From assembly GCF_024707485.1 (NCBI RefSeq), contig NZ_CP102602.1, positions 620,001-684,000 on the forward strand: 64,000 nucleotides of DNA, in the 5' to 3' direction. The notes beneath the pieces were generated by a model. The model searched no databases. It was given only the letters and a program-made list of their open reading frames with translations, and had not been told where the DNA came from. The translations under genes were made by a program, and so were the position numbers. Shown here piece after piece: positions 1,020 through 36,281 of the stretch (its first letter is position 1; the number at the start of each line of letters is the position of its first letter). This DNA is from Thermococcus thermotolerans. Its GTDB lineage: Archaea > Methanobacteriota_B > Thermococci > Thermococcales > Thermococcaceae.

Positions 1020-3623
1020 ATGCGCGGGGAAAGGATACGCTACGCCGAGAGGGAATACACTGATGAGGAAATATTTGGGATACTCAGCGAGCCGGTTAGG
1101 GAGTGGTTTAGGCGGAAGTTTGGAACATTCACACCGCCACAGCGCTACGCGGTCATCGAAATCCACAAGGGAGAGAACGTGCTCATCTCATCTCCAACCG
1201 GTTCCGGGAAGACCCTTTCGGCTTTTCTCGCGGCCATAAACGAGCTTATCCTCCTCGGCAAGGCCGGGAAGCTTGAGGATAAAATCTACGTGCTCTATGT
1301 CTCCCCGCTGAGGGCTTTGAACAACGACATTAAGCGCAACTTGGAGGGGCCCTTGGCCGAGATAAAGGAGGTGGCAAAGGAGCTCGGCTACGAGATTCCG
1401 GACATAAGGGTTGGCATAAGAACGAGCGATACCTCAAGCTACGAGAAGAGCAAGATGGTGAAGAGGCCGCCGCACATACTTATAACCACACCCGAAAGTC
1501 TTGCCATAGCCCTGAATGCCCCCAAGTTCCGCGAGAGGCTTAAGACGGTCAAATACCTCATCATAGACGAGGTTCACGCTTTAGCTGAAAACAAGCGCGG
1601 CACTCACCTCGCGCTCAGCGTCGAGAGGCTCGCCCATTGGTCCGAGAACGAATTCGTGAGGATAGGCCTGAGCGCGACAATTCATCCGCTTGAGGAGGTC
1701 GCCAAATTCGTCTTCGGCTTCGATGACGATGGGAAGCCGAGACCGGGCCTGATAGTTGACGTTAGCTTCGCCAAGGAGACTAAGATATGGGTCGAGAGCG
1801 TGGTTGACGACCTTGTTTATACCGATGCTGGAACGCTTAGCAACGCCCTGTACCGCCGTCTGGCGGAGCTCATCAGGGAGCACATGACAACGCTGATCTT
1901 CACCAACACGAGGAGCGGTGCCGAGAGGGTCGCATACAACCTGAAAAAGCGCTATCCGGAGTTCGAGGGTCTTATAGAGGCGCACCATTCAAGCCTCTCG
2001 CGGGAAGTTCGGTTAGACGTTGAGGAGAAGCTCAAGAAGGGCGAGCTTAAAGCGGTTGTCACCTCGACGAGCCTTGAGCTTGGGATTGACATTGGGACAA
2101 TTGATTTGGTCATTCTTATCGGTTCGCCGAAGAGCGTTAACAGGGCCCTGCAGCGCATTGGAAGGGCCGGCCACAGGCTCCACGACGTCAGCAAAGGAGT
2201 AATCCTCGCCCTCGACCGCGACGACCTCGTGGAGGTTACGGTCTTAGCGCACAACGCGAGGAACAGAAGGCTCGACCGGATAAGGATACCGAAGAACCCC
2301 CTCGATGTCCTCGTCCAGCACCTCCTCGGGATGGCGCTCAACCAGGTGTGGGATGTGGAGGAGGCGTACAAACTTGTGAGGCGCGCCTATCCGTACAGGG
2401 ACCTGCCCTTTGAAGACTTCATGAGCGTGCTGAGGTATCTCGCCGGGGAGTACGCTGGTCTGGAGGAGAGGAAGGTCTACGCGAAGATATGGCTTGAGGA
2501 CGGCCGCTTCGGAAGGCGCGGCAAGATGACGAGGGCGATCTACTATATGAACGTCGGCACGATACCTGACGAAGCAAAGATACGGGTCTACACCATGGAC
2601 AAGCAGATGATCGGAACGGTTGAGGAAGAGTTTGCCGAAAGGCTGATGCCCGGCGACATCTTCGTCTTGGCGGGGAGAACCTACGAGTTCGTCAAGAGCA
2701 GGGGCAACAAGATTTACGTGATTCCCCGCGAGGGGGCGAAGCCGACCATTCCAGCATGGTTCTCGGAGATGCTTCCGCTCAGCTTCGACCTTGCTATGGA
2801 TGTCCAGCGCTTTAGAAAGGAGGTCGCCGGCCTCGTGGACAACAAGCGAGCCAAGAGCCTGCTCATGAGGAAGTACGGCATAGATGAGAGGGCCGCCAAG
2901 GCGATTTTGACTTATTTCCGCGAGCAGGCGAGGTATTCAACGGTTCCGGACGACGAGACTGTTCTCGTCGAGGAAGTCCTCGGGGATAAGAGGAACCGCT
3001 ACTTTTTCCACACCCTCATCGGAAGGCGCGCAAACGACGCCCTGAGCAGGGCTTTTGCATATCTCGTGAGCAAGAAAAAGAGGACCAATGTCGGTGTCGC
3101 CATAAACGACAACGGCTTCGCCCTGCTCCTTCCCCCTGATAAGAGGTTGAGCGAAGAGGAGATAATGGCCCTGTTTGAAATCGAAGACCTCCGCGAGGTT
3201 CTTAGGAGGGCCCTTGACAACACGGAGCTCCTCAAGAGGCGCTTCAGGCACGTCGCCAACCGCGGGCTGCTGATCCTCAGGAGATACATTGGAAGGAGCA
3301 AGCGCCTCGGAAGGCAACAGGTCATGGCCGTTGCGCTCCTCAAAGTGCTCAAGGAGAACCACCCTGACTTTCCGCTTCTCAAGGAGGTCTACCGTGAGAT
3401 AATGGAGGACAAGATGGACGTTGAGGCTGCCGAACTCTTCCTCCGCTGGGTCAGGGAGGGAAGGATAAAGGTGGTGGTCGAGCACAACGAACTCCCAAGT
3501 CCATTCGCATTCAACCTTGAAGTGATAGGCTCAAGCGACGTGGTCCTCATGGAGGACAGAAGGGAGATGATAAAACAGCTCCACAGAAAGATAATGGCGA
3601 TGATAGAAGCGTCAGGGCAGTGA
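1020..3623 (+). CDS. lhr: Lhr-family ATP-dependent helicase
   Basis: A superfamily 2 helicase of 867 residues in the Lhr (large helicase-related) family, which unwinds or anneals DNA:DNA and RNA:DNA duplexes in repair or restart. Visible motifs are the Q-motif region TPPQRYA (about 38-44), Walker A SSPTGSGKT (57-65), DEVH (183-186), SAT, and the C-terminal RecA motifs TSTSLELGIDIG and QRIGRAGHR. A winged-helix and Lhr core region fills the rest. The length matches archaeal Lhr proteins. The start is set by the leaderless promoter spacing. The 3' end overlaps the convergent KaiC-like gene by 12 bases. Confidence 0.93.
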   Translation: MRGERIRYAEREYTDEEIFGILSEPVREWFRRKFGTFTPPQRYAVIEIHKGENVLISSPTGSGKTLSAFLAAINELILLGKAGKLEDKIYVLYVSPLRALNNDIKRNLEGPLAEIKEVAKELGYEIPDIRVGIRTSDTSSYEKSKMVKRPPHILITTPESLAIALNAPKFRERLKTVKYLIIDEVHALAENKRGTHLALSVERLAHWSENEFVRIGLSATIHPLEEVAKFVFGFDDDGKPRPGLIVDVSFAKETKIWVESVVDDLVYTDAGTLSNALYRRLAELIREHMTTLIFTNTRSGAERVAYNLKKRYPEFEGLIEAHHSSLSREVRLDVEEKLKKGELKAVVTSTSLELGIDIGTIDLVILIGSPKSVNRALQRIGRAGHRLHDVSKGVILALDRDDLVEVTVLAHNARNRRLDRIRIPKNPLDVLVQHLLGMALNQVWDVEEAYKLVRRAYPYRDLPFEDFMSVLRYLAGEYAGLEERKVYAKIWLEDGRFGRRGKMTRAIYYMNVGTIPDEAKIRVYTMDKQMIGTVEEEFAERLMPGDIFVLAGRTYEFVKSRGNKIYVIPREGAKPTIPAWFSEMLPLSFDLAMDVQRFRKEVAGLVDNKRAKSLLMRKYGIDERAAKAILTYFREQARYSTVPDDETVLVEEVLGDKRNRYFFHTLIGRRANDALSRAFAYLVSKKKRTNVGVAINDNGFALLLPPDKRLSEEEIMALFEIEDLREVLRRALDNTELLKRRFRHVANRGLLILRRYIGRSKRLGRQQVMAVALLKVLKENHPDFPLLKEVYREIMEDKMDVEAAELFLRWVREGRIKVVVEHNELPSPFAFNLEVIGSSDVVLMEDRREMIKQLHRKIMAMIEASGQ

Positions 3624-4316
3624 AATGACGCGGTCGTGGTGGACGACTATCCCCCTGCTGGTTATCTCGTACGGGCGCATACTGTGGTCGAAGCCACTTC
3701 CCCTGAACTTCAGTATCTTCAGCCCGCGGTATAGCGTCCCCTGGATGTCAAACATCCTCAATTCTATGACCCCGCTCACAAGGTACTCCTCGATGTCGGT
3801 CTTCTGCAGTTCGGACGTCATGAGAACCGTTGCACCCATCCGGGCCATGCTCTTCACAAAGCTCAGAAAGGCTTTTCGGTATTCCATCTCCTTTGAGGAG
3901 GTCAGCTTAAGCATTGTTATTGGGTCAAGTATGATCCTGGTGTAATGTCTTTCCCTCAGCTGCTCCTTTATTGCGGCGGTCATTTTCTCCATGCTTCCAG
4001 CAAAGGACTCAAAGAAGTCCTCGACAAGAACGTATCTCTCCGATGTGGGGGTGGCGTCTATCAGGGTAAACCTGCTGTCGTTGATTCTAAAGCCCATCTT
4101 CGCCATATCAGCCCTCAGGTTCTCGGCGGGCTCTTCGAGGGTTACGTAGAGGACGTTTTCACCGTTTGCGATTCCAGCCATAGCAAAGTGCATGGCGAGG
4201 GTAGTTTTGCCAGTACCTGGAGCACCTTTTACCAAGTACGTCCTTCCGGGTATCAATCCGCCCCTGAGCATGACATCGAGCCCCGGGATGCCCGTTGATA
4301 TCCTCTTGCTGTACAT
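3612..4316 (-). CDS. KaiC-like RecA-superfamily ATPase
   Basis: A single-domain KaiC/RadA-type ATPase of 234 residues. Walker A is GAPGTGKTT at 31-39, and a Walker B-type strand (TRIILDPIT) lies near 150. Single KaiC domains of this kind are common in Thermococcales; roles are mostly unproven, with proposals in signalling, motility or RNA/DNA transactions. The N-terminus STGIPGLDVMLRGGLIPG is the typical KaiC start. It is not RadA or RadB, since it lacks their DNA-binding and polymerisation motifs. The gene stands alone, convergent with the helicase. Confidence 0.85.
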   Translation of the reverse strand: MYSKRISTGIPGLDVMLRGGLIPGRTYLVKGAPGTGKTTLAMHFAMAGIANGENVLYVTLEEPAENLRADMAKMGFRINDSRFTLIDATPTSERYVLVEDFFESFAGSMEKMTAAIKEQLRERHYTRIILDPITMLKLTSSKEMEYRKAFLSFVKSMARMGATVLMTSELQKTDIEEYLVSGVIELRMFDIQGTLYRGLKILKFRGSGFDHSMRPYEITSRGIVVHHDRVISLP

Positions 4317-34720: not shown

Positions 34721-34781
34721 GGTGCTTATAAAACCGAAAACACAAGAAAGAATTTTAACCTTGGAGTAAAAGTTTTTTGTG

Positions 34782-35237
34782 ATGACCATGCTGAAGAAAA
34801 TAGCCAAATTGGACTCGGGAACCGTTTTAATCACCGGAGACGGGAAGAAGATTGCCAGGATATACCTGAATGCATGGGCAAAGCGGGGAAAGCGCATACT
34901 TGCTGAATACCTGCCGTTTCAGGTCGATGGTGACGTCTACATCGGCTCGCCGTTTGAGAGCGATGACTTCGATGTCTACCTGATAGTCAATCCACTCTCG
35001 CGATCAAAGGCCGAAAGGGAGAAGCTAAAAGAGTGGCTCGCCTCCCATACGGACAGGCTCGTCTTGCTCTACGAGCGCAAGTACGTGAAGGACTCGATAG
35101 CCCGGTATGGGATAGGGGAGTTCATCGACTATTTAATAGCCTACAAGAGGGAAACCGTTGGCTTCGAAAGGCTGGACGTCATGAGGCTGGAAGATGGAAA
35201 GGTCGCCGAAAGCAAGACCTACGTCAGGAGGTACTGA
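34782..35237 (+). CDS. Conserved hypothetical protein
   Basis: A 151-residue protein. The middle holds a pattern of strands and helices (DDFDVYLIVNPLSRSKAE, RLVLLYERKYVKD, IGEFIDYLIAYKRET) that may form a small alpha/beta fold; I do not recognise the family. Three start codons are possible (GTG 34779, ATG 34782, ATG 34788) with no strong ribosome binding site, so the exact start is uncertain. It is divergent from the BMP lipoprotein and directly followed by a guide RNA gene. Confidence 0.65.
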   Translation: MTMLKKIAKLDSGTVLITGDGKKIARIYLNAWAKRGKRILAEYLPFQVDGDVYIGSPFESDDFDVYLIVNPLSRSKAEREKLKEWLASHTDRLVLLYERKYVKDSIARYGIGEFIDYLIAYKRETVGFERLDVMRLEDGKVAESKTYVRRY

Positions 35238-35262: not shown

Positions 35263-35326
35263 CTCCGCCCGATGACGAGCGGTTTCGGGTCTGAGGTGTG
35301 ATGACACCAGCTATCGCTGAGGGCGT
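35263..35326 (+). ncRNA. C/D box guide sRNA, two 23S rRNA targets
   Basis: All four boxes of an archaeal C/D guide RNA are in place and correctly spaced: C box CCGATGA (35269-35275; its second base departs from the RUGAUGA consensus), D' CTGA (35291-35294), C' GTGATGA (35298-35304) and D CTGA (35317-35320). The D' guide (35276-35290, ending GCGGTTTCGGGT) is complementary to ACCCGAAACCGC; the D guide (35305-35316) to CGATAGCTGGTG. Both targets match, from memory, conserved segments of 23S rRNA domain II roughly 130 bases apart (ACCCGAAACC; GATAGCTGGT). By the D+5 rule the methylated bases would be the G of CCCGAAA and the second A of GATAG. Such RNAs direct 2'-O-methylation by fibrillarin, Nop5 and L7Ae. 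Confidence 0.85.
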
Positions 35327-35375
35327 TCATAATAATTATATATGCATAAGTCCCTCGCTCATAGGGTGATGGAAG

Positions 35376-36281
35376 ATGCTGGGAAAACTCAGGGAGAAGT
35401 TAGGCTCATTCGTGGACAAGGTTTCGCAGACTGAAATAAGCGAAAAGGACGTGGAAAACGCGCTCTGGGATCTGGAAATAGAACTCCTTGAGGCGGATGT
35501 CGCCCTCGAAACCGTTGAGGAGCTGAAGGAAAGGATAAAGGAGAAACTTGTTGGCCAGAAGGTAAAGATAGGCACCAACAAAAAGGCACTGGTTGAAAAG
35601 GCCGTCCGTGAGGCCGTCCTTGAGGTTCTGGCACCTGAGAAGAGAATAGACCTCCTTGAGCTGATCAGGTCAAAGGAAGAGAAGCCCTTTGTCATCGCCT
35701 TCGTGGGCTTCAACGGCTCCGGAAAGACGACCACCATAGCCAAGCTCGCTCACTGGCTCAAGAAGAACGGTCTAAGCGTTGTCATAGCCGCGAGCGACAC
35801 CTTCAGGGCTGGAGCGATTGAGCAGGTTGAGGAGCACGCAAGGCGCGTCGGTGTTAAGGTCATCAAGCACTCCTACGGTGCGGATCCGGCTGCAGTTGCC
35901 TACGACGCGATCCAGCACGCCAAGGCGAGGGGCCTTGATGTGGTCCTCATAGACACCGCCGGAAGGAACGAGCTGAACAGGAACCTCATGGATGAGATGA
36001 AAAAGATAGCGCGCGTAACCAAGCCCGACCTGGTGATATTCGTCGGCGACAGTTTGGCCGGCAACTCAGTGGTAGAGCAGGCGAAGCAGTTCAACGAGGC
36101 GGTAAAGATCGACGGGGTAATCCTCACGAAGCTGGACGCGGATGCGAGAGGCGGTGCCGCTTTAAGCATAAGCCATGCAATCGGCGCTCCCATACTCTTC
36201 GTCGGCGTCGGACAGGGCTACGACGACCTAAGGCCATTCGACGAGAAGTGGTTCGTCGAGAGGATTTTTGGAGAGGGATGA
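35376..36281 (+). CDS. ftsY: Signal recognition particle receptor FtsY
   Basis: The SRP receptor GTPase that brings ribosome-nascent chain complexes to the membrane. The 301 residues show an N domain helix bundle (1-100) and a G domain with G1 GFNGSGKTT (about 112-120), [16 protein letters not shown] and TKLD. The short N-terminus is typical of archaeal FtsY. Start at 35376 with GGTGAT six bases upstream; TATA-like TTATATATG is near 35337. The last 64 bases overlap, on the other strand, a small reading frame. Confidence 0.95.

Follow-up and report, generated by a model that had tools for sequence, protein, structure and literature searches.

What is encoded in the short gap between a hypothetical gene and ftsY in Thermococcus thermotolerans, and on which nucleotides would its product act? 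The locus was studied within a stretch of 64,000 nucleotides of this genome, hereafter called the window. The original prediction placed there a C/D box guide RNA with properly spaced C, D', C' and D boxes and two targets in 23S rRNA. An Rfam search agrees with the class and adds what that prediction had not recognised, namely that the RNA belongs to an already named family. RF01136 (sR28) matches the plus strand at 35268-35322 with 62.8 bits (gathering score 39, E 8.7e-14). The alignment spans the full model (positions 1-55 of 55), with the same boxes and the same two guides, and no other Rfam family exceeds its own gathering score in the window. Small differences from the family consensus exist nevertheless: box C is AUGACGA instead of AUGAUGA, and the base preceding box D' is U where the consensus has a. 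We consider that the window RNA is almost certainly the Thermococcus sR28, a dual-guide C/D box sRNA acting at G794 through its D' guide and at A926 through its D guide.

Other identities were rejected. The family RF01147 (sR12) reaches 37.3 bits against a gathering score of 38 and its guides differ, and the remaining C/D families of Rfam all stay under their own thresholds. A fortuitous C/D-like match was also rejected, on the basis of a scan for the box architecture with Markov controls and of the guide shuffling described below. When both strands of the window were scanned, the sR28 site scored 21 out of 22 and the sole other site 19, whereas none of 20 Markov-shuffled sequences of window length (one strand each) contained a site scoring at least 20.

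The features of the locus are collected in the table.

Features of the sR28 locus and its neighbours (window coordinates).
Feature	Position	Strand	Basis or remark
Upstream hypothetical gene	34779-35237	+	ORF, 152 aa; ends 34 bases before box C
TATA-like promoter element TTTATAAA	35239-35246	+	Sequence
Terminal stem, 5' arm CGCCC	35266-35270	+	Pairs with GGGCG 35321-35325, 5 bp
Likely mature sR28, 62 nt	35267-35328	+	Ends projected from T. kodakarensis sR20
Box C ATGACGA (AUGACGA)	35272-35278	+	Fifth base C instead of U, one off consensus
D' guide GCGGUUUCGGGU	35279-35290	+	12 nt; C35286 faces 23S G794
Box D' CTGA (CUGA)	35291-35294	+	Sequence, Rfam alignment
Box C' GTGATGA (GUGAUGA)	35298-35304	+	Sequence, Rfam alignment
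D guide CACCAGCUAUCG	35305-35316	+	12 nt; U35312 faces 23S A926
Box D CTGA (CUGA)	35317-35320	+	Sequence, Rfam alignment
Terminal stem, 3' arm GGGCG	35321-35325	+	Pairs with CGCCC 35266-35270
ftsY (SRP receptor GTPase), downstream	35376-36281	+	PF00448 and PF02881

The four boxes follow one another in the order C, D', C', D, the guides fall within the 10-14 nt expected of C/D sRNAs, and the D'-C' spacer measures 3 nt. The terminal stem exceeds the three pairs used as a criterion for circular archaeal C/D sRNAs (PMC9014305). Both neighbours are those that had been named; the upstream ORF matched no Pfam family, and the RNA, encoded on the strand of ftsY, lies 55 nt ahead of the start of that gene. 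The announced TATA box is indeed present, starting 24 nt before the 5' end that had been proposed for the RNA. The RNA itself was correctly located, but its ends had been set at 35263-35326 and, by analogy with T. kodakarensis, should rather be placed at about 35267-35328. A scan for bacterial-type promoters and terminators returned nothing of use.

We then aligned both guides with the organism's own rRNA, which is encoded by a single 23S gene (G000:C1:1889729-1892759, where G000 is the window's own genome). The D guide forms 11 Watson-Crick pairs with CGAUAGCUGGU at 922-932, and the D' guide forms 10 Watson-Crick pairs and one G-U pair with ACCCGAAGCCG at 790-800. The G-U pair arises because the 23S rRNA of this organism reads ACCCGAAGCC instead of ACCCGAAACC, the sequence that had been given for the D' target; the site was right, the sequence was not. 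As expected of C/D sRNAs acting on a stable RNA, a Watson-Crick pair is found at the fifth position from both D and D'. The nucleotides at this position are G794 and A926, in agreement with the G and the A that had been forecast. They are separated by 132 nt, close to the anticipated 130, and their equivalents in Escherichia coli are G674 and A804 (numbering of strain NCTC86, counted from matched motifs).

How far these matches depart from chance was assessed by shuffling the guides 6000 times, with G-U pairs taken into account. The score of the D' guide was reached 140 times and that of the D guide 11 times, and no shuffle gave both within 150 nt of each other. This test supersedes an earlier one with 2000 shuffles and no G-U pairs, where 1296 matched the D' score and the match looked chance-like. 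Even in the G-U-aware test, the D' match by itself is not extreme. The guide scan covered the 23S gene plus about 1500 bases on each side, and guide matches outside 23S were also seen in these flanks, for example at 3419 in G003 and at 4262 in G000.

Two of the proteins expected for such a mechanism are encoded in this genome, which carries fibrillarin (PF01269) and Nop (PF01798). L7Ae, Nop5 and fibrillarin have been described to assemble on the two motifs of such RNAs, fibrillarin methylating the nucleotide five bases from D or D' (PMC4644070). In sR28, the C and D boxes would form a k-turn and C' and D' a related motif, both of which would be bound by L7Ae, Nop5 and fibrillarin. The guides would pair with domain II of 23S rRNA, and 2'-O-methylation would fall on the rRNA nucleotide that faces the guide base five positions upstream of each D box, G794 being the predicted target of the D' guide and A926 that of the D guide. 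The RNA is presumably expressed and circularised in T. thermotolerans, and both nucleotides presumably methylated there.

The conservation of sR28 across the genus argues for such a function. A strong match is found in 33 of 37 genomes, the window's own included, and the 33 sequences (26 of them distinct) align over 59 nt without any gap in the stretch compared. Within the 12-nt D guide, only the first base varies. The D' guide occurs in two main forms, whose cores GUUUCGGG and GCUUCGGG differ at a single site. In the 24 genomes that have both sR28 and a full 23S sequence, pairing extends over 10-12 bp at the D site and over 10-11 bp at the D' site near 785-790. Terminal stems of 3-6 bp are present at all loci, counted as contiguous pairs in a fixed register with G-U allowed, and box D is CCGA in 23 of 33. 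Second matches to RF01136 are weak (20-24 bits), and one of them, in the window's own genome, is another C/D candidate (L113). The genome of Sulfolobus acidocaldarius, used as a control, also exceeds the RF01136 cut-off, which could reflect shared descent or convergent guides. When genome contigs were scanned for both guides together, 14 loci were obtained, 13 of them titled Thermococcus, Thermococcaceae or Thermococci; the lone Oscillospiraceae locus was taken as chance. No Pyrococcus appears among the 14, a point on which this collection cannot decide, and the Rfam consensus fits the pattern.

The surroundings of the RNA are less uniform. Downstream of box D, at a distance of 43-67 nt, the N-terminus of ftsY could be identified at 29 of the 33 loci; its motif was not recognised at the other four. 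By the longest-frame rule used to assign the ends of upstream ORFs, all 33 loci have a long open frame that stops within sR28 or ahead of it. Its stop codon is the TGA of box C at seven loci (L002, L004, L005, L007-L009 and L029) and lies in box C' at four (L013, L017, L018 and L028), so that coding sequence and guide RNA overlap at these 11 loci; at the remaining 22, window included, the frame ends before the RNA. Archaeal C/D genes are known to overlap stop codons in this way (PMC7994747). Of the 33 loci, only 14 carry a TATA-like hexamer located at -35 to -32 relative to box C, and none of the 11 overlapping ones is among them; the promoter element seen in the window is not a general property of the genus.

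Since a strong match is absent from four genomes (G007, G019, G016 and G028), the genus can do without sR28. Two of the four, G007 and G019, are 99% complete and assembled as single contigs, and both keep the two 23S targets and ftsY while the RNA in front of ftsY has gone (L084 and L085). The genomes devoid of sR28 were read by eye for CCAGCTATC...YGA sites. None was found in G007; in G019, one site corresponds to the complementary strand of that genome's 23S sequence and another, at 891280, is antisense to a coding sequence; the remaining sites showed no convincing second box pair. A 23S tree of 28 rows puts G007 together with the RNA-bearing G000 and G012 (support 100/99); G019 is weakly placed (85/8). 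The distribution of sR28 on this tree requires three changes, one of which falls at the outgroup, and two losses are thus the simplest reading. These losses are apparent ones, yet G007, which is closely related to the window's genome and has kept the targets without the RNA, offers a clean test case for the role of the two methyl groups.

Could the D' guide work mainly, or additionally, elsewhere, with the D guide still at A926? The D site is clearly first, with a duplex energy of -18.4 kcal/mol against -13.8 for the next. For the D' guide, the site at 790 does rank first in the organism's own 23S rRNA (-20.1 kcal/mol), but the choice is less clear-cut than had been claimed, with site 468 within 1 kcal/mol (-19.1) and a site at about 704 at -17.3. 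In the window's subclade the alternative nucleotide would be G472 (site 468); in relatives it would be a G at about 702-706. Indeed, in G005, G009, G015 and G024 (L007, L008, L009 and L029) the D' guide forms 12 bp, 11 of them Watson-Crick, at about 702, which exceeds the pairing at about 788, and at every alternative site the fifth pair is still G-C. On the other hand, the site near 785-790 pairs over at least 10 bp in 24 of 24 genomes with both sequences, whereas its rivals rank high in some only, and a published table for Pyrococcus abyssi carries the equivalent of G794. We regard a D' target away from G794 as improbable. Separately, one D' guide might methylate two G residues in L007, L008, L009 and L029.

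Two further roles would leave the RNA in place and change what it does. The two targets of sR28 flank a helix of 23S rRNA (C798-C803/G916-G921, identified by eye) that closes a subdomain of 112 nt. The D' duplex spans three bases of its 5' strand and the D duplex begins directly after its 3' strand. Compensatory changes, also read by eye and in few sequences, occur in this helix, its third pair being G-C in G000 and A-U in G048 and G049. By binding on both sides, sR28 could keep the helix open until its release, and a chaperone role, which the original prediction had suggested, would fit this geometry. Such a role has been proposed for other dual-guide sRNAs (PMC7994747). That folding would be the main task of sR28 and methylation a secondary one is nonetheless quite improbable, as both sites preserve the geometry for methylation, and the same targets persist in G007 and G019, where the RNA is absent. 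Far less probable still is that the element would be no guide RNA at all and would act in cis as a k-turn leader of ftsY. Leaders bound by L7Ae through a k-turn have been reported in archaea (PMC5539422), and the position of the element close to the ftsY start and on its strand would suit one. However, the guides are its most conserved part and match rRNA, it has a TATA element of its own upstream, a separate RNA of 62 nt exists in T. kodakarensis, and G007 and G019 retain ftsY with no such RNA ahead of it. A guide RNA for G794 and A926 is the reading that we retain.

A peculiarity of this guide RNA lies in its k-turn, whose third pair is made of base 5 of box C and base 2 of box D. Among the 33 sR28 sequences this pair is C-C in 23, U-U in eight, C-U in one (the window) and A-U in one. 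The same tendency is seen within the window's own genome, where 21 C/D candidates were found by pattern and 20 kept, the one without a D box being left out. Base 5 of box C is C in seven of these 20, four of which have C at base 2 of box D, and all 13 candidates with U have U in box D (Fisher p 0.007, a statistic that ignores ancestry). This observation concerns the window's own pair of boxes (35272-35278 with 35317-35320) as well as L121 and L123-L128. McPhee and others reported that C at position 3b or G at 3n, but not both, allows folding by metal ions; by their account, the archaeal box C/D k-turn in their assays did not fold in this way (PMC4382518). The coordinated passage from U-U to C-C at one k-turn pair, together with the two apparent losses of sR28, is what appears mildly new here. 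On the presumption that box C provides the b strand of the k-turn, the 3b rule predicts protein-independent folding of the C forms. We tentatively suggest, as a possibility that we hold to be rather unlikely as a whole, that the third pair moved jointly from U-U to C-C or C-U in Thermococcus sR28 and in several C/D sRNAs of the window's genome, that this subset, in contrast to the standard k-turn, may already be folded in the absence of L7Ae, and that the apparent double loss of sR28 beside an unchanged target provides natural knock-outs.

An apparent counterpart of sR28 has been sequenced in a relative. In G011, which we take to be T. kodakarensis, the sR28 match lies at 558825-558876. These positions are inside those of T. 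kodakarensis sR20 (Tko-sR20; 558818-558879), an RNA of 62 nt with linear and circular reads (PMC9014305). The wild type gave 1,622 aligned reads of sR20, 21 of them circular, and none was circular in an RNA ligase knock-out (PMC9014305). By its position, sR20 appears to be the ortholog of sR28. The two loci differ in their 5' context: in T. kodakarensis the stop of the upstream ORF falls within box C and a start site is predicted at 558914, whereas the window has an intergenic TATA box. The family and the pair of sites are already on record, both spots are very probably known, and as a guide RNA the window sR28 is an ordinary member of its family that adds little to it.

A parallel can also be drawn with more distant systems. 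Yeast Gm805 is presumably the G of ACCCG. A table in a 2024 review puts Gm809 of P. abyssi 23S rRNA on the same line as yeast Gm805, and its Am941 on that of Arabidopsis Am945 (PMC11542601). The caption of this table cites references 62 and 63, neither of them archaeal, so the listed sites may be mapped or predicted (PMC11542601). The distance between Gm809 and Am941 is 132, the same as between 794 and 926 in the window's organism. In yeast, the nucleotide equivalent to the D' target is methylated by snR39b, which is a eukaryotic snoRNA (PMC11542601). Since yeast also carries a methyl group at the equivalent of G794, this site would be either old or one reached repeatedly.
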